17,735 nt of DNA from Pavlovales sp. CCMP2436 (taxonomy: Eukaryota > Haptophyta > Pavlovophyceae > Pavlovales). The stretch is taken from NCBI GenBank assembly GCA_026770615.1, contig MU631553.1:112197-129931 (forward strand), written 5' to 3'. The notes beneath the pieces are model-generated. The model was given only the letters and a program-made list of their open reading frames with translations, did not search any database and was not told the DNA's origin. Below are positions 2,980 to 12,517 of the stretch, one piece after another (position 1 is the first letter of the stretch; the number at the start of each line of letters is the position of its first letter). The position numbers were made by a program, and so were the translations under genes.

Positions 2980-5900
2980 ATGGCAGACCCGCTCGCCGCC
3001 ATCCGAGCCACCTTCGCGGGGAGCGAGGAGGTGGTCGCGCACATCGTGCTGCGGATTATCACGCTCGCGCGGCTGGGCGAGCGAGGCGCCGGCTTCCTCG
3101 TGCACGGCGGCTCGGGCACGGGCAAGAGCACGCTCGCCGCCGCGCTCGCGCTCGCGCTGTTGCCGCTGCTGCCCGCGCGCGTGCTGCACGGGCGCGAGGA
3201 AGGCGCGCTCGAGGCGGCTATCGAGGCTCTCGAGCTCGCACAGCTACCGGCGAGCGATGATCCCACTACCGTCGTGGCGCGGCTGCTGCTGCTCGACGAC
3301 GTCGACGATATGGCGCCGCGCACCGCGCGCTCGCCCGAGCATGGCGCGCACCGCGTGGCGCGGCTGTGCGCGCTGCTCGACGGCTCGCTCGCGCGGGCGG
3401 GCGCTTCCATCTTCGTCGTTGGCTTCTGCGTGGAGCCTGCCGCAGTCGCACCCGCACTCTGCCGCGCCGGCCGGCTGCACCGCCAGCTGCTGCTGCGCCT
3501 GCCCGCGCCGGCCGAGCGCGCGGCCCGCGCGGCGCGCACCGCCGCGCCGCTGGTCGCCGCGGGCGCCTGCAGCGAGGAGGACGTGCGTGAGGCCGCGGCC
3601 GGCGCGCATGGGCTCACCATCGCTGAGATCGACGGCGCGCTGGCGCGCGCCGCGCACGCGGCCGTGCGCGCGCGCGCTGGGCAACTAGCGTCGGTGCCCT
3701 CCGCGGCAGCCGGTACGGCGGAGGCCGCCCTCGCTGCACTCACGCTCTCGGGTGGCCCGGCCGCGCCGGTGCTGCGGTTGAGCCGAGAGGCCCTCGCCGA
3801 GTGCATGCGCGCACAGCGGCGCGGGCGGCTGCTGCAGGTGCGCGGGGCTGACAACGCGCAGCCAGACGCAACCGACGACCTCTCTGACGACGCGCAGCCG
3901 CGCAACGCCGCCACAGGCGCAGGCGCAGGCTGCGCCGCGGGCGACAAGCTAGCAGCCAGACTGCCGCTCGACCGCCTACCCGGTCTCGAGGCAGTGGCTG
4001 CCTCACTGCGCCGGCGAGTGGTGTTACCCGTGCGCTCGCCTGAAACCCTTTTAAAGTGGGGCGTGCGCCCCTCGCGCGGCGTGCTGCTCTACGGGCCGTC
4101 CGGGTGCGGCAAGAGCGCGCTCGCGCATGCAGCGGCTTTAGAGAGCGGCGCCAACGTGCTCTCTGTGCAGGCCGCCTCCCTGCTAGGGCCAGTAGTCGGC
4201 GAGTCGGAGGTGATTTTAAAAAAAAAATGATGTACCTTTATCCCCAACCCAATTCACAACCCAAGCCGAGGCCCAAGGCCTTATATGAACCCCAGCTCTA
4301 GCCCTAGCCCTAGACCCGACCTAAAGCTCTAGCCCATCCCCAACCCCATCACCAAACCTAGCTATAGCCTATCCCTAATATTAACCCCAACCCTAATTTA
4401 ACTTTGACCCCCTATCTCTGGCCCTAGCTCCCATCGTACGGCGCTGCCCAAGATAGACGTCTGATTTTCACTTCGGGCCCATAGAGATTTCGAGACGAGA
4501 TTAAACGATGATGTTGGCCAAATGCCCGTTCAAATGGTTTAAGCTGGTTAGATCCACGAATGAAGAAACGCACGTGGAGAATAATGACGCGCATGCATTC
4601 GTAGCCCTAGTCCTGGGACCCCAAAGCCTAAGCCCGAATCTTGACCCCCTAGTAATAACTCAATCTCCCAACCCGGCCCTAGCAAACACTTGCCCCGAAC
4701 CCAATCCTAACCCCAACCCCGATCCTAAGCAGGCGGCGGTGCGCGCCCTGTCGTCTTACTTTTCTTATGGTATTTATGATTACTTTATTACTCATGTTAT
4801 TCTTTTGAAATACCCGCAGGCGGCGGTGCGTGCTCTCTTCGCAAAAGCGCGCGCAGCAGCTCCGTGCGTCCTCATCCTCGACCAGGTAACCTTTTTTGAA
4901 ACTGCGCCTTACTTAATAGGAAGACAGGCCGCAGCAGTCAGGCAAATCCAGTGTGTGGACGGGCTCAGCCGGGTTACCTTTTTTTTACCTTTTTGCTGCC
5001 AAACTGCTAGTAGCAACAGCAGCAGTAGAAGTAGGAGTAGGAGTAATAATAGGAGTAGGAAAAATAATGATGATGATGATGATGATGATAATGATGATAA
5101 TAATAACAATTATACTACGACTACTACTACTACTACTACTACTAATAATAATAATAATAAAATTTATTCTATTGTTTTATTTGCAGCTCCAGTCCCTCGC
5201 GCCCACACGCGGTGTGGACACATAAGAAGAAGAATAATAATTCTTCTTTTTCTTCTTCTTCTTCTTATTACTATTATTATTATAGTTTTAGTTATTTTCT
5301 ATTGTTTACAGCTCGAGTCCCTCGCGCCCACACGCGGTGCGGAAACATAATAATAAGAATACTAATATAATAATAATAAGAAGAATTTGTTTTTATTTGC
5401 AGCTCGAGGTCCTCGCGCCCACACGCGGTGCGGACACATAATAATAATAATAATAATAATTTATTATTATTTACAGCTCGAGGCCCTCGCGCCCACACGC
5501 GGTGCGGACACGATAATGATGATAATAATAATAATAACTTCTTCTTTTTTCTTCCTTTTTCTTCCTTTTACAGCTCGAGGCCCTCGCGCCCATACGCGGT
5601 GCGGACACGAGCAGCGAGCAGACACTCGACCGCACACTCAGGTGATTTTTTTTTTAATAATAGTTCTTTTAACGTCCCCCGACTTTGGAAAATAGATACG
5701 ATCAAATAGATAAGATACGATATGTTTGGTTCAAGAGAATTGTCTACGTAAAGATAAGGCACGCAGCAGGCAATGGGCGACGCAGCGCTCAGACCAGCAT
5801 AACATTTAGAACAATCAGACACCAGCTTGAATCCCTATAAGTAATGTAAAAGATAAGGACACCCGACCGGGTCTGGCGAGTGCATTCGTGTGCTCTGCTA

Positions 5901-7790
5901 AGGTCCCTTGATCCGAGTGTTTTCTCAGCGCTTGGGTCCTGTGGAGACCTGTCATGGAACGGACGTATTTCTAGATATTTGCACATTACCGTCTAACATA
6001 TTCCGCTCGTTCGACCTCTCATCGACGTCGGTTCATAACGACGTCACTTTTGCAAATGAATTCGCCGTGAGCTGGCGTCTGACTGTCCTGAAAGTTGTGC
6101 TGGTCTGAGCGCTGCGTCGCCCATTGCCTGCTGCGTGCCTTAGTCGGCTGCGCTGGCTTGGGCGCCACTGCGCATGCCGATGGAATTCCGGAAGTACACT
6201 TGTTTAATGCCAGCACTGATAAAAATAAGAAGATACTCTGAGAGAGAGAGAGAGAGAGAGAGGGAGATGGAGAGTTGCGAGCAGACAATTTAAATAAGGT
6301 TCGCACCAGGTAAATACTTTGAAAGAAGGCGCGCTTCCTTAATTTCTCGACTTCTCGGGCAGCCAGACCACCGGCCACAGGGGTATAAAACTATAAATCG
6401 AATGATAGTTATTTAAGGGGTAGCTGTCTAGCGGTGTGGCTGCCCAAGCTTCTTCTTTTTTTTCTTTCTTTTTTTTGAGCTTATTATTTGGATGCTATTG
6501 TAAGTAAGCCCCACTACCTTCATCTAATTATGTGGAGACTGGCACCTTTAATAATCGACTCTGGAAACAAATGTAATTGAAGAAACCCCGCTTTATGAGA
6601 ATGGTTTCAGATGTGTGTTCATATATCAAGCGCCCCCGTTTCCTGCAGAACCCGTTTCCCCGGACCTGAACAAATAAACTTTTTGTGTGCGTACTATTCA
6701 AAATTGGATGAATGATAATAGTGCCTCAGCGTGCAAGTGTTTGCATGCATGCGCGTGTGCATGCACGTGTGCGTCTTGCCCTAGCGCTTGTAATTTTTTG
6801 TCAGTGGTGGACTTTTAGCGAATGGATGCAGTTGGAGGTACCTGCTGGCACGGCGGGTTCACTCCTCGGAGTGACGTCGTTATGAACCAACGACGATGAG
6901 GGGTCTCGAGTGGAAATTGAATAAAATACCCACGCCCCAAGCGTACGCCCAGCATGACGCTAGCACACTCACCCAAATTTCGGATTTAAGACAAACCTTA
7001 GCCCCGACCCCCCCCCACCCTTCACCCTTTTCCCCCCCTCCCCTTAACGCAGCACGCTACCCTCAGAGATGGACAATCCTAATAATATACTGGTAACAAG
7101 TCGCACAATCATGAGCAAAAACACCCGAACAGTCAAAAGTAGCACTCAATCAATCAATCAATTAATCAAACAAAAACAAAAAAATCAGCACGCTCCTCTC
7201 TGAGATGGACGGCGTTGGCACCGCGCACCTGCAGCCCGCCGACCACGAGGCGGACGGCGGCGCGGCGGCAGAGCTCGAGTTGGTGATCGTCATCGCGATT
7301 TGCACCGAGCGGGGCGCGCTCGACTCCGCCATCCTGCGGCCCGGCCGGTTGGATGAGCATCTGCCTGTCCCACCGCCCGCCGTTGCCGCGCGCGCACAGA
7401 TCCTGCGCGTGCACGCGGCGGGGATGGCGGTGGGCGCGGACGTGGACTTCGGGGCGCTGGCGGCGGGCACGGAGGGGCTGAGCGGCGCGGAGCTGCGCAA
7501 CGTGTGCCGCGAGGCGGTAATAATTAAAAAAATTAAATAATATTTATTCTTTTTATTGTTACTACTACTATTATTATCATTACACCTACAATTTTACGAA
7601 ACGAATACGACTACGATTACGAATACAAATGATAATGCTAGAAAAAATTAAAAAATAATAATAGGGGCTCTGCTGCGTGCGCGATGAGATTGGCGGGCGC
7701 GGCGGCGGCGTGGTCACCGCCGCGCATTTTGGCGCTGCGCTCGCACGCTCGCACAGCGTCGGTCGCGCGCCCGACCGGGCCGGCCGATGA
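2980..7790 (+). CDS. Two-module AAA+ ATPase, AFG2/SPATA5L1-like, five exons
   Basis: Joining exons 2980-4209, 4820-4885, 5574-5641, 7189-7516 and 7665-7790 gives a 605-aa protein; all introns are GT-AG and phases match (0, 0, 2, 0). Module 1 has Walker A GGSGTGKST (residues 43-51) and Walker B LLLLDD (102-107). Module 2 has GPSGCGKS (372-379), VGESE, the AAVRALFAKAR helix, Walker B VLILDQ (427-432), LSEMDGVG, ILRPGRLD with the arginine finger (503-510), and LSGAELRNVCREA. The C-terminal helix ends near VTAAHFGAAL. Module 2 looks most like AFG2/SPATA5L1, which act in pre-60S ribosome maturation; module 1 is degenerate and recalls PEX1 D1. The usual N-domain is absent. Odd points: the Walker B Glu is Asp107 in module 1 and Gln432 in module 2, and the sensor-1 Asn position is Thr494. 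ATPase family is certain; subfamily is not. Introns 1-3 carry decoy exon heads. Confidence 0.88.
4210..4732. repeat. C-rich telomere-like degenerate repeats filling intron 1
   Basis: Much of intron 1 of the AAA+ gene consists of short C-rich words such as agccctagccctag, ccccaaccctaa and cctaaccccaacccc. They resemble diverged telomeric (CCCTAA-type) repeats, complementary in style to the G-rich DNA at 1-560. The open frames through it are compositional. Confidence 0.55.
4733..4753 (+). repeat. Truncated copy of AAA+ exon 2 head with acceptor AG
   Basis: The 15-nt stretch caggcggcggtgcgc plus gccct, with acceptor CAG at 4730-4732, nearly repeats the true exon 2 start at 4820 (GCGGCGGTGCGTGCTCT). 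The copy decays after ~17-20 bases and is followed by a pyrimidine-rich 66-bp stretch leading to the true acceptor. The offset is 87 bp. Confidence 0.75.
5026..5163. repeat. Trinucleotide microsatellites in intron 2
   Basis: Runs of gtaggagta, gatgatgat, actactact and aataataat follow one another. On the + strand they read as poly-Asp/Asn/Thr open frames that are not genes. They sit directly upstream of the first decoy copy of exon 3, and further (ttc), (tta) and (aat) runs separate the later copies. Confidence 0.9.
5187..5608 (+). repeat. Array of five exon 3 heads, four decoys plus the real one
   Basis: A 35-bp core encoding L-E-A-L-A-P-T-R-G-A-D-T, always preceded by CAG, occurs at 5187-5221, 5312-5346, 5403-5437, 5477-5511 and 5574-5608. 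Offsets are 125, 91, 74 and 97 bp. Only the last continues into further coding sequence and a donor (5641/5642); the first three run into TAA soon after the core, while the fourth stays open but out of frame with the true exon. The cores differ by a few substitutions: copy 1 reads LQSLAPTRGVDT, copy 4 differs from the real exon by one base (ACA versus ATA). AT-rich triplet repeats fill the gaps. Confidence 0.92.
5757..6140. mobile_element. 384-bp MITE with TA target-site duplication, inside intron 3
   Basis: The left end aggcacgcagcaggcaatgg is mirrored by the right end ccattgcctgctgcgtgcct; the inverted repeat extends ~75 bp, with diverging inner parts. TA flanks both sides (5755-5756 and 6141-6142), as for Tc1/mariner-type insertions. 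No protein of its own is seen. Related fragments lie at 7904-7980 and 8957-9060. Confidence 0.8.
6241..7048. other. Remainder of intron 3: simple repeats and an element fragment
   Basis: A (GA)n run lies at 6241-6263. An alternating purine-pyrimidine stretch (gcatgcatgcgcgtgtgcatg) lies near 6742-6772. 6868-6904 is an inverted copy of 6015-6050 from the MITE (words ggttcataacgacgtcac and its complement). A C-rich tract is at 7009-7043. No gene is seen. Confidence 0.5.
7053..7074 (+). repeat. Truncated copy of AAA+ exon 4 head with acceptor AG
   Basis: CACGCTACCCTCAGAGATGG (starting at 7053 and running to 7074) repeats the first 22 bases of exon 4 at 7189-7210 with 3 mismatches, and is preceded by GCAG like the true site. 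It then decays into aatcctaataat. The offset is 136 bp, and a (caat)n/A-rich stretch lies between the copy and the real acceptor. Confidence 0.8.
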
Positions 7791-7903
7791 GCGACTCCGA
7801 GCGAGGGGGCCTGGGGCACGTCAGGTCCAGAGACCTATCAGAAACGGGTTAAATAGGTGCTTAACTGGCGGAGACTGATCCGCAAACTAGTTCATATTTC
7901 TGA
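7791..7903. other. 3' flank of the AAA+ gene with an inverted repeat
   Basis: Just after the stop codon an 11-bp inverted repeat cctatcagaaa (7834-7844) and tttctgatagg (7897-7907) could form a hairpin. The word gcaaactagtt(c/t)atat occurs at 7881 and again at 7980, on both sides of the solo element end at 7904-7980. Confidence 0.4.
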
Positions 7904-7980
7904 TAGGGATTCAAGCTAGCGTTTAACTGTTCTGAATGTTGTGCTGGTCTGAGCGCTGCGTCGCCAATTGCCCGCTGCGT
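7904..7980 (-). mobile_element. Solo terminal fragment of the TA-type MITE
   Basis: About 77 bp ending gctggtctgagcgctgcgtc and then ccgctgcgtgc match the reverse complement of the left end of the MITE at 5757-5842 with several mismatches. The partner end is not seen nearby, so this is a remnant or a solo end. It is bounded by the direct repeat gcaaactagtt. Confidence 0.7.
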
Positions 7981-8176
7981 GCAAACTAGTTTATATCATT
8001 TACTTTACTTTACTTCGCTTTACTTTAAGAGATACAGACCTTTTCTGGGGCCGGACATTTTCGTAGATATTACTCAGTTCGTATAAAGATAGCTGTTTTT
8101 TGACCTGTGTGCTCCGGCATTCATTGGCTGCTACTTAAATAATCTCCGCAAAAACGGAAAAACGCGCAATATAAAC

Positions 8177-9060: not shown

Positions 9061-9530
9061 TCCCTGGCACCGCTAAGCTGATCAGACACACGACAATCGA
9101 CGACTCTCTGACTGACGCGCTGACCGGCCACTGCTGCCTCTCGCTCGTCTCAAAATGCAGCTCGCCTGCGCACATGCCGCACCGGTGGCACATAATAAAC
9201 AGACGAATAACCTTCGGCAGCCTGTATCCCACAGACCACAGTGTGATTCTTGTCCACGAGGGGCACGAATCACACGGTGGGGGGCTCATTGTGGTCCCGG
9301 TCTACCCCTCCCCCTCAGGAAGGTGGGCCTCGGGCTCAATATGTTGGGGTGTGCTCTCGTGGCATTGCTCCTCCCTTTTGCGCTTTTGGTTCGCCTCTGC
9401 TCGCTGCTGAGCGGTGTGTGGCGGGCTCGTTGCTGTGTCGGGCCGCATCCCCGCGAAGATTTTTCGCGCCAAAAGCAAAATTAAAAACAGCTGCGAAGTG
9501 CCGAAGTGCCGTGAATCGTTCGGCGGCAGC
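9061..9530. other. Upstream region of the acidic protein gene; no gene seen
   Basis: Contains a 9-bp inverted repeat gtgtgattc / gaatcacac (9241-9249 and 9267-9275). A short tandem gaagtgcc word (near 9496-9510) lies just before the start codon. No supported open frame. Confidence 0.35.
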
Positions 9531-10753: not shown

Positions 10754-12517
10754 TCAGCGCAAGCCCTCCGCCACGGGCGGGTCAAGCGGCAGCGCGGCCG
10801 AGTCCACGAAAAACGGGCAGCTGAACAGAACGGGGTCCAGCGGATTCGGCGCCGCAGCGGCGGGCCACACGCGCGCTGATAACGGCTTCTTCAAGCGCGC
10901 ACTCATCGACGCAACGTCGCAATAAAGCGCCGCGAGCTGCTCCGCACTCGCCCCGGCAGGCACGATGACTGTGTCGATGCCAGTTCCGCACACGGCTGAG
11001 TTGAGGAGCAGCGAGCTGATCGGCAGCGCACCGCGCGCCGCGAGCTGGGCGAGGCCGGTGTCCTCCGTCTGAGGGAGCACTGCGAGGAAGAGTAGGTCGC
11101 GCGGGGGGGAGGGAGGGAGGAAGAGGGTCAGCTTTTAGCATCTTTAGCAGCTGTAGCAGCAGCGAGGCGGGGTGGGGGGTGGGGGGCAGGAGAGTGGGAG
11201 AGGGGGGGTGTAGGGGGGTGAAGGGGGGGCAGTAGGGTGGGAGAGGGGGCGAGAGCTTGCGCGCACTCAATCCGCAGTAGCCCACGAGTCTGAAGGGCAG
11301 CTGCTTCAGAACGCCAGTCACCAGCGCGCAAAGCGCGAGCGTCCCCGCGCCCCCGAACGGCCCAAGGCCCACCGCCTCGAATGCGACAACCAGCGAGTCC
11401 TCGGGACGTGCCGCGGAGGCGACGGATGAATCGGTGCCTTCGAGTTTTATGCGAAGATTCCAATTTAAGACGTGAAAAATATATATAAAATTTGATTAAC
11501 AGGTGCTAATGTGAATGCAGTAGATTATGACGATGGACGGACTAGTAATGGTTTGGATAATGTACAATTCAACAATATAAACGTACCCGCGAACGTGACC
11601 CCCGGGCACACCCGCTCGAGCCGCAGTCCCAACGCCTCAAGCTGCCCGACAGCATCGCCGAACTCCTTCTCGAGCTCGCGCTTGGCCGCGCTCAGCACCG
11701 TGCCGCCTAGCTGCGGGCTTAGCCGCGCGCAGGGGCTGGCCCCCGGGTCGGCGAGTGCGCGGGCGCGTGAGAAAGCCGTTACGAGCAGATCGGAGTTCTC
11801 GCACGCAAACGCGAAAGCGGGCGTGCGCCAGGCGCTGCCCGCGGGGGAGACACGCAGCGCGTCCTCGCCCAGAGGTGGTGCATACGCTCCAGGGAAGAAG
11901 GGAGAACCCGCACCGAGCCCGCAGGTGATCGCGATTTTAAAACAGAAGGGAGCGCCTGCGAGAGGACCCTCGACCACCTCCCCCCCCGTCGAGCGCGTCG
12001 CCGCGTTGATCGCGAGGACGAGCTGCGCGCACTCGTGCGCGCGGACAAAGTCTGGGAGGCCGTCAGCGCTGCAGTGCATCATCACGCTGGCGAAGAGCCG
12101 GCTCGTCGAAGTGATGGCCTGCACGAGCAAGCCAAGGACAAGGCTGCTGTCGACTTGTCCCAGAGAGGCGATCACCGAAACGCCACCGCCGAGCGCCACC
12201 TCGAGCGCCGCCAGTCGAGCGTCGAGCGCGCGCAGCTGCGCAAGTGCTGCCGCCGGATCCGACGCCGCCCACTGCTCGAACCCGTTGGTAGCGAGGCGCG
12301 CCATCTGCAGATCAACATCCTGCGCGCGCAGCTCGGCGATGGCCGCGCGGAAGAAGTTGGCCGCATCGTCCACGCCTTTGGTCACATCTTCGAAGCTCTT
12401 GGCGCTGATGAAATACGTTACCGCGCGGACCTTTATCTCCCACGACTTTGCAGCGCGTGACCTAAGCCCCTGACCGTGCGAAGCCCTCACGACTTTGCAG
12501 CGCGTTCGCGTGGGCAC
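10754..12517 (-). CDS. DUF711/UPF0210 family protein, three exons (5' end uncertain)
   Basis: On the minus strand, exons 12517-11587, 11437-11267 and 11079-10754 join in phase (1, then 1) through GT-AG introns of 149 and 187 bp to give ~475 aa. The family is recognisable by KVRAVTYFISAKSFED near the N-terminus, LATNGFEQW, SPFFPGAYA, the VSPAGSAW/FACENSDLL stretch, VTFAGTDSSVAS across junction 1, VGYCGLMLPQTED across junction 2, and NSAVCGTGIDTV, LKKPLSARVWP and FSCPFFVDS at the end. The family has a pyruvate-formate-lyase-like fold and no settled function. Full-length homologues start close to KVRAVTYF. No in-frame ATG is found here: the nominal start is a GTG, so a short upstream exon is likely (an acceptor-like ctttcag lies near 12533). 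An 18-bp repeat duplicates the exon head. It is divergent from the VTT gene, 193 bp away. Confidence 0.85.
12441..12505 (-). repeat. 18-bp direct repeat at the head of the DUF711 exon 1
   Basis: The minus-strand word acgcgctgcaaagtcgtg occurs at 12458-12441 and at 12505-12488, 47 bp apart. The inner copy leads directly into GGAGATAAAGGTCCGC, which encodes the start of the conserved domain. If the true acceptor is the AAAG within this word, this is another truncated exon-head copy like those in the AAA+ gene. Confidence 0.6.

Follow-up and report, generated by a model that had tools for sequence, protein, structure and literature searches.

Decoy exon heads in an AAA+ ATPase gene of Pavlovales sp. 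CCMP2436: putative fossils of tandem duplications across splice junctions

Results

Organization of the AAA+ gene and its surroundings

The DNA analysed here, referred to as the window, is the whole stretch of 17,735 nucleotides from contig MU631553.1 (positions 112,197 to 129,931) of the haptophyte Pavlovales sp. CCMP2436. A gene on its forward strand is composed of five exons, which are listed below together with intron 2 (evidence in parentheses).

2980..4209, + strand: exon 1, from ATG to the donor GTGATT (Pfam AAA; alignment to P0001-P0003)
4820..4885, + strand: exon 2, AAVRALFAKARAAAPCVLILDQ (alignment to P0001-P0003)
4886..5573, + strand: intron 2, with the decoy array and triplet microsatellites (repeat analysis; gene model alignment)
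5574..5641, + strand: working exon 3, with donor GTGATT and an acceptor behind a 20/20 pyrimidine tract (gene model alignment)
7189..7516, + strand: exon 4, STLLSEMDG...CREA (gene model alignment; Pfam AAA lid)
7665..7790, + strand: exon 5, including the stop codon (gene model alignment)

The spliced model (2980-4209, 4820-4885, 5574-5641, 7189-7516, 7665-7790) encodes 605 residues, and GT/AG borders are present at all four introns. In alignments, the metagenome proteins P0001 and P0002 are about 56% identical to the model and pass its junctions without inserted residues, and P0001-P0003, all from other organisms, are without duplicated residues at the junction of exons 2 and 3. Pfam AAA matches were detected in two stretches of exon 1 and the AAA lid in exon 4, and among the 60 solved chains listed for P0002, VCP/CDC48 ranked at the top and AFG2 next. 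The gene product is accordingly an AAA+ protein with two such domains and belongs to the CDC48/VCP-AFG2 group; an AAA+ ATPase gene had also been named in a preliminary description of this DNA, and the metagenome homologues support the gene model.

The Walker B motif of the second AAA domain (4874-4885 plus 5574-5580) is split by intron 2 and reads LILDQ|LEAL, D-Q replacing the usual D-E; at the same position DQ is found in P0001 and P0002, and DH in P0003. The Walker B motif of the first AAA domain carries DD (DN in P0001), and the two ATPase sites both look atypical as judged from these residues.

A VTT-domain protein is encoded beside the AAA+ gene in one open frame, and is 99% identical to MMETSP transcript proteins over 60% of its length, 95% to a Pavlovales sp. 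CCMP2436 protein over 60%, and 80% to a Diacronema lutheri protein over 85%. Intron 3 and the DNA 3' of the AAA+ gene (5755-5850, 6070-6142, 7891-7982) contain 69-92-nt copies of one element, inverted and direct and 86-92% alike, perhaps members of a short transposon family. The segment 16678-17735 contains several minisatellite arrays, whose repeat units include lengths of 24, 37, 63 and 66 bp. A DUF711 gene on the minus strand has, close to its start, an exact 18-bp direct repeat (12441-12458 and 12488-12505), perhaps another junction duplication. Scanning the whole window for Rfam families and tRNAs gave no matches.

Array of exon heads in front of exon 3

The head of exon 3 is present in five in-register copies, starting at 5187, 5312, 5403, 5477 and 5574, of which the last is the working one. 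Each is preceded by CAG, and the distances from head to head are 125, 91, 74 and 97 nt. The four upstream copies, hereafter called decoys, were characterized by repeat analysis and comparison with the working head.

5187..5221, + strand: decoy head 1 of exon 3, CAG at 5184-5186, 4/35 differences, stop after 12 codons
5312..5346, + strand: decoy head 2 of exon 3, 3/35 differences, stop after 12 codons
5403..5437, + strand: decoy head 3 of exon 3, 2/35 differences, stop after 12 codons
5477..5511, + strand: decoy head 4 of exon 3, 1/35 differences, 72 open codons, out of frame with the real exon

The number of mismatches to the working head decreases step by step from the far to the near decoy (4, 3, 2 and 1 of 35). 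When read in phase from exon 2, decoys 1-3 run into a stop after the 12 codons, and decoy 4 stays open for its 72 codons and joins the working exon out of frame; copy 5 reaches the donor, GT following exon 3 directly. The score of the intron 2 head was reached by none of 500 Markov-shuffled introns (see below for the shuffle test). The array is in these respects as the preliminary description had drawn it, with 35-nt heads behind CAG 74-125 nt apart, triplet microsatellites as spacers, a donor at the last copy alone, early stops in three decoys and a shifted frame in the fourth.

The spacers consist of AT-rich triplet microsatellite DNA and differ in sequence and length. Decoys 1-3 have a common breakpoint on the exon side, where GGACAC is followed by ATAA... 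of the microsatellite, and decoy 4 tracks the exon for two bases further. The four decoys are mutually 68-81% alike over 91 nt, intron side included. Upstream of the head, decoy 4 and the working copy have just TTTACAG in common, the tract before the working head being different; at the working copy, the intronic portion of the duplicated segment cannot be seen directly. At one site all four decoys carry ACA and the working exon ATA, indicating that one of the two was changed after the copies had been made. Pyrimidines count 20/20 before the working acceptor as against 11-16 before the decoys.

A search of the own-genome DNA with 5170-5640, in which the best candidates were scored, gave 21 matches, namely the locus itself and 20 within the spacers, none of these being in any of the heads. 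Dispersed similar introns, a trait of introners, were not found for the head array of intron 2 in this genome search, which skips simple repeats and leaves the spacers unjudged.

Decoy heads of exons 2 and 4

Two further decoys in the same gene, found by repeat analysis, both scored above all 500 shuffles.

4733..4749, + strand: decoy head of exon 2, with its own GCAG at 4729-4732, 87 nt upstream of the real head (4820)
7053..7074, + strand: decoy head of exon 4, behind GCAG, 136 nt upstream of the real head (7189), 19/22 identical

Both had been missed in the preliminary description, and the event is not peculiar to exon 3. Alignment of exon edges to intron 4 and to its shuffles detected no decoy there. 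The pyrimidine tract of the exon 4 decoy acceptor (7029-7074) is 18/20, as opposed to 4/20 at the working site (7165-7190); choice of the working site by its pyrimidine tract would agree with exon 3 but not with exon 4, and this rule was abandoned. The comparison of exons 3 and 4 yielded no rule accounting for the choice of acceptor.

Shuffle test including the CCT1 gene

The shuffle test took up to 60 nt of every exon edge and compared its alignment score in the adjoining intron with the scores in 500 first-order Markov shuffles of that intron. The sample consisted of 13 introns with exons set by homology, giving 26 ends, 4 introns being in the AAA+ gene (the start of intron 3 placed 2 nt off the final model) and 9 in the CCT1 gene on contig C455. 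Five of the 26 ends scored above all 500 shuffles, that is, the heads of AAA introns 1, 2 and 3, the head of CCT1 intron 6 and the tail of CCT1 intron 7, a proportion biased upward because the AAA+ gene had been picked for its decoys. CCT1, taken for the conservation of chaperonins, gives 2 of 18 ends, and two genes are too few for a rate. All five top-scoring matches extend to the splice junction, AG or GT included. Three more ends, the AAA intron 3 tail, the CCT1 intron 7 head and the CCT1 intron 9 tail, gave P values of 0.02-0.032, which is near the chance yield of 26 tests.

Exon 7 of CCT1 is flanked by a decoy head upstream and a decoy tail downstream. The CCT1 protein P0056 (564 residues) comes from contigs no longer than 2,138 bases and, in view of this short length, is probably transcript-derived. 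It matches the spliced CCT1 model at 99% identity, with neither decoy present. At the start of exon 8, P0056 has YF where the model has NI, so that P0056 may come from another strain. Exon 8 (L038, minus strand) begins with NIVEAG, as opposed to YFV in both P0056 and the Diacronema protein P0057; this may represent either a strain difference or a change in the exon edge itself.

Survey of the wider genome

The assembly sampled is 119.35 Mb in 703 contigs. The sample included 25 ten-kb regions, 23 spread over the contigs and two beside the window, 11 of them consisting wholly of N. The ten-kb regions contain 102,814 readable bases, which rise to 159,529 with the other loci and become 155,564 after merging of overlaps; loci L002-L008 had entered through microsatellite similarity to the window and form a biased set.

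Candidate AT/GC edges were compared on both strands with the adjoining 600 bp, and a score of at least 26 was obtained for 29 of 193 acceptor-like edges (0.8 expected) and 45 of 408 donor-like edges (1.4 expected), the expected counts being taken from flanks of other loci; such scans are redundant, including the decoys themselves, mirror images, wrong-strand matches and false splice sites, and show a local excess, not rates. At a stricter level of at least 18/22, matches on the intron side were obtained for 7 of 106 acceptor-like and 5 of 129 donor-like edges, against 0 and 0 with foreign introns. On the exon side the same level gave three acceptor-like and two donor-like matches, three being the window array and two a single repeat in L032. 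When the cut was relaxed to at least 15/22, exon-side copies of donor-like edges (18) outnumbered intron-side copies (10), and the two sides were not separated.

By hand inspection a total of 13 junctions in seven loci were accepted, seven with heads and six with tails.

Accepted decoy heads: AAA exons 2, 3 and 4; CCT1 exon 7; L023 9351-9447; L023 8458; L005 1702
Accepted decoy tails: CCT1 exon 7; L023 9351-9447; L023 7328; L002 2664; L004 2390; L014 6213

Outside the AAA+ gene and CCT1, exons were defined by open frame and splice signals, two of them having sub-threshold Pfam matches (UvrD_C_2 at E 0.035 for an L023 exon; CBS at E 0.089 for an L002 exon), and the helicase and CBS readings, below the curated cut-offs, were set aside as leads. 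Sites with an undecided working copy were left out (L002 1801, L004 1443, L006 1669, L018 1529, L023 9861 and L025 5253), and L011 1819/1947 was dropped, as masked bases precede it and an exon is not demonstrable.

The decoy pattern recurs across genes, with heads before acceptors and tails behind donors. Accepted cases are present in two (L014 and L023) of the 14 spread regions with readable bases, and the L023 exon 9351-9447, too, is preceded by a copy of its head and followed by a copy of its tail. Where a case is younger, the likeness extends into the intron (L023 8458, L004 and L002). The GT of one L002 decoy tail has been lost. Decoys present singly at other exons, both on this contig and on others, are 6 to 24% different from their exons. 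The L004 segment 2498-2765 contains three decoy tails, each with AG and GT borders, resembling a complete 47-nt exon, the inclusion of which would shift the frame.

Local duplications away from junctions also exist in the sample, for instance at L018 8154-8257 and L027 3927-4212. The rates of junction and interior duplications are not comparable, because exon-anchored copies stay recognisable for longer and the complexity filter loses AT-rich interior duplications.

Order and divergence of the decoys

Six arrays with two or more decoys were compared, the L018 1529 array being omitted for its undecided working copy. From near to far, the differences from the working exon were 1, 2, 3 and 4 of 35 in the AAA exon 3 array, 2, 2 and 6 of 49 in L004, 2 and 3 of 26 in L005, 1 and 3 of 22 in L014, and 0 and 4 of 26 at L023 8458. 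The tail array at L023 9351 runs against the trend, with 2/29 for the near copy and 1/25 for the far copy, which stops short of the junction. The least diverged decoy is the nearest one in five of the six arrays, including one tie. A record of intron growth, as had been suggested for exon 3, fits both the gradient in that array and the order in five of six.

Between the working exon and six single decoys, 24 differences were counted, which fall on codon positions 1, 2 and 3 in numbers of 2, 7 and 15 (one of the 15 being in the intron). This distribution can be reconciled with neutrally evolving decoys combined with synonymous drift of the exons (P 0.09 against an assumed 0.47); if the decoys alone had drifted, so large a share of third positions would be unexpected (P 0.003 against 1/3).

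Discussion

Origin of the decoys

The decoys are best explained, with a probability of about 0.7, as fossil exon heads that originated from short tandem duplications straddling the 3' splice junction, the unit for exon 3 being presumably the intron tail plus the first 35 nt or so of the exon. The preliminary description had likewise proposed duplication across the junction, lengthening the intron and multiplying its acceptors, and is supported in this by the in-register CAG, the likeness of the decoys on either side of the head, the common breakpoint and the similar cases in other genes.

As read back from its end products, the mutation step would be a simple one: a duplication over an acceptor would leave an intron tail with an exon head before the intact junction, and a duplication over a donor an exon tail with an intron head behind it. 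Such duplications may persist because the outermost site, that is, the last acceptor or the first donor, still yields normal mRNA; those inside exons, by contrast, would mostly be purged. The likeness of the exon 3 decoys over 91 nt, together with their shared exon-side end, suggests that a single founding duplication was followed by expansion of the array, as opposed to four separate events. Copies would be added on the exon side, and the older ones pushed into the intron, by misaligned exchange between the last decoy and the working head, a step that would account for the shared end as well as for the gradient of divergence. The tract before the working head would have been changed or exchanged after copying, and the decoys would be spliced rarely or never, drifting neutrally. 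Triplet microsatellite DNA, abundant here, may favour breakage or slippage; of the earlier suggestion that microsatellite instability drove the growth, the association stands, and the driving role goes beyond it.

More tentatively, and with somewhat less than even odds, the same process could operate throughout the genome in the manner of a conveyor belt, in which straddling duplications add fresh exon edges, older ones move inward and decay, introns come to record their own growth in order of time and the spliceosome dependably selects the outermost among the nearly identical sites.

Alternative explanations

The upstream heads could instead be regulated poison acceptors, used in certain conditions so that transcripts are sent to decay and the array tunes the output of the AAA+ gene. 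All four decoys have kept CAG and their use would end in a stop or a frame shift, and the three L004 decoys are bounded by AG and GT like a whole exon, but decoys of the same kind occur at unrelated junctions, which argues for a general mutational origin, they diverge without clear coding constraint, and one L002 tail is without GT. P0056, nearly identical to the CCT1 model and transcript-like, contains no decoy, although it represents another gene and perhaps another strain. Regulation by poison acceptors is judged unlikely, and the regulated mis-splicing or buffering considered in the preliminary description has no support so far.

It is quite improbable that the decoys are scars of intron birth according to the Rogers model, in which an intron arises from a duplicated exon segment bearing AGGT and the decoys would be remains of that birth. 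By inspection, the signature of this model was recognized in the sample just at L018 4929-5157, an intron-like stretch with TGCGCAG|GTCGAGA at both ends and once mid-way, as predicted; the decoy heads of the window, however, carry an upstream acceptor and do not adjoin a donor, and intron 2 contains no conspicuous copy of the exon 2 tail (P 0.29). In none of AAA introns 1-4 did the 3' end prove to hold a copy of the preceding exon's tail (P 0.94, 0.29, 0.02 and 0.60, the third being an 11-nt match in the middle of intron 3).

Dedicated copying of exon edges into neighbouring introns, by local template switching or RNA-templated repair with a preference for such edges, could account for the head copy upstream and tail copy downstream of both CCT1 exon 7 and L023 9351-9447. 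We consider it improbable: young copies include junction-side intron sequence, as plain tandem duplication predicts, and special copying machinery is not needed since local duplications are also found away from junctions (the L018 and L027 examples above).

An assembly artefact or collapsed haplotypes can hardly be the explanation, even though assemblies are prone to error where short tandem repeats lie in microsatellite DNA, because the copies differ from each other, the spacers vary in sequence and in length (74-125 nt from head to head), and single decoys of other exons, 6 to 24% off their exons, are found on this contig and on others.

Implications

Intron lengthening is usually inferred by comparison across species. 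Under the proposed origin by junction-straddling duplication, intermediate copies have apparently been preserved in order of age, anchored to an exon edge that is conserved, so that a single genome could serve to measure how fast, in which direction and in units of what size introns grow. The exon 3 array would also serve as a natural test of 3' splice-site choice, with five acceptors before nearly the same head behind different tracts, and annotation that chooses the first good acceptor would mis-call such genes.

Comparison with known systems

Recurring decoy exon ends, including those at both ends of an intron, were not found among the literature matches listed (titles and beginnings of abstracts, most subscription papers being outside this scope), which is weak evidence for novelty. 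To our knowledge, one published instance of the boundary-straddling type of duplication exists, that of potato RdRp.

Among the known systems, introners are described in the available text of PMC9860276 as dispersed families, some with TSD or TIR; the main text is without mention of haptophytes, Pavlova or Emiliania. They resemble the present case as a bulk change of introns in eukaryotes, but differ in that the decoy heads are local copies of their own exon. For the Diacronema lutheri genome, introns are given as counts in the accessible part of the report (PMC8379373). Tandem genomic duplication is named, in the portion available of PMC3443670, as the sole proposed mechanism of intron gain shown in vivo. 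Novel intron positions in Drosophila, attributed to sliding or tandem duplication (PMC2891723), share tandem duplication near splice sites with the decoys, but that paper, by its title, concerns new intron positions. In the Rogers model, as told in the accessible text of PMC4974935, exonic DNA with AGGT is copied and an intron is created; local tandem duplication reshapes exon-intron structure in both cases, but an existing intron is lengthened here.

The closest parallel is potato RdRp, in which, according to the available sections of PMC4974935, a tandem genomic duplication over an intron-exon boundary made a new intron, the duplicated segment running from the 3' end of an intron into the head of the exon that follows and taking the acceptor and polypyrimidine tract with it. 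The repeat unit described here also holds an acceptor and an exon head in register with the splice site. The copied tract, part of the potato case as reported there, is visible among the four decoys, but not between decoy 4 and the working copy, where the common sequence stops at TTTACAG. Potato RdRp, on the same account, keeps the upstream head as an exon and gains an intron, whereas the upstream heads here would be skipped. Unlike the potato case in that description, the pattern in Pavlovales sp. CCMP2436 includes up to four decoys at one junction, extends to several genes and is mirrored at donors.
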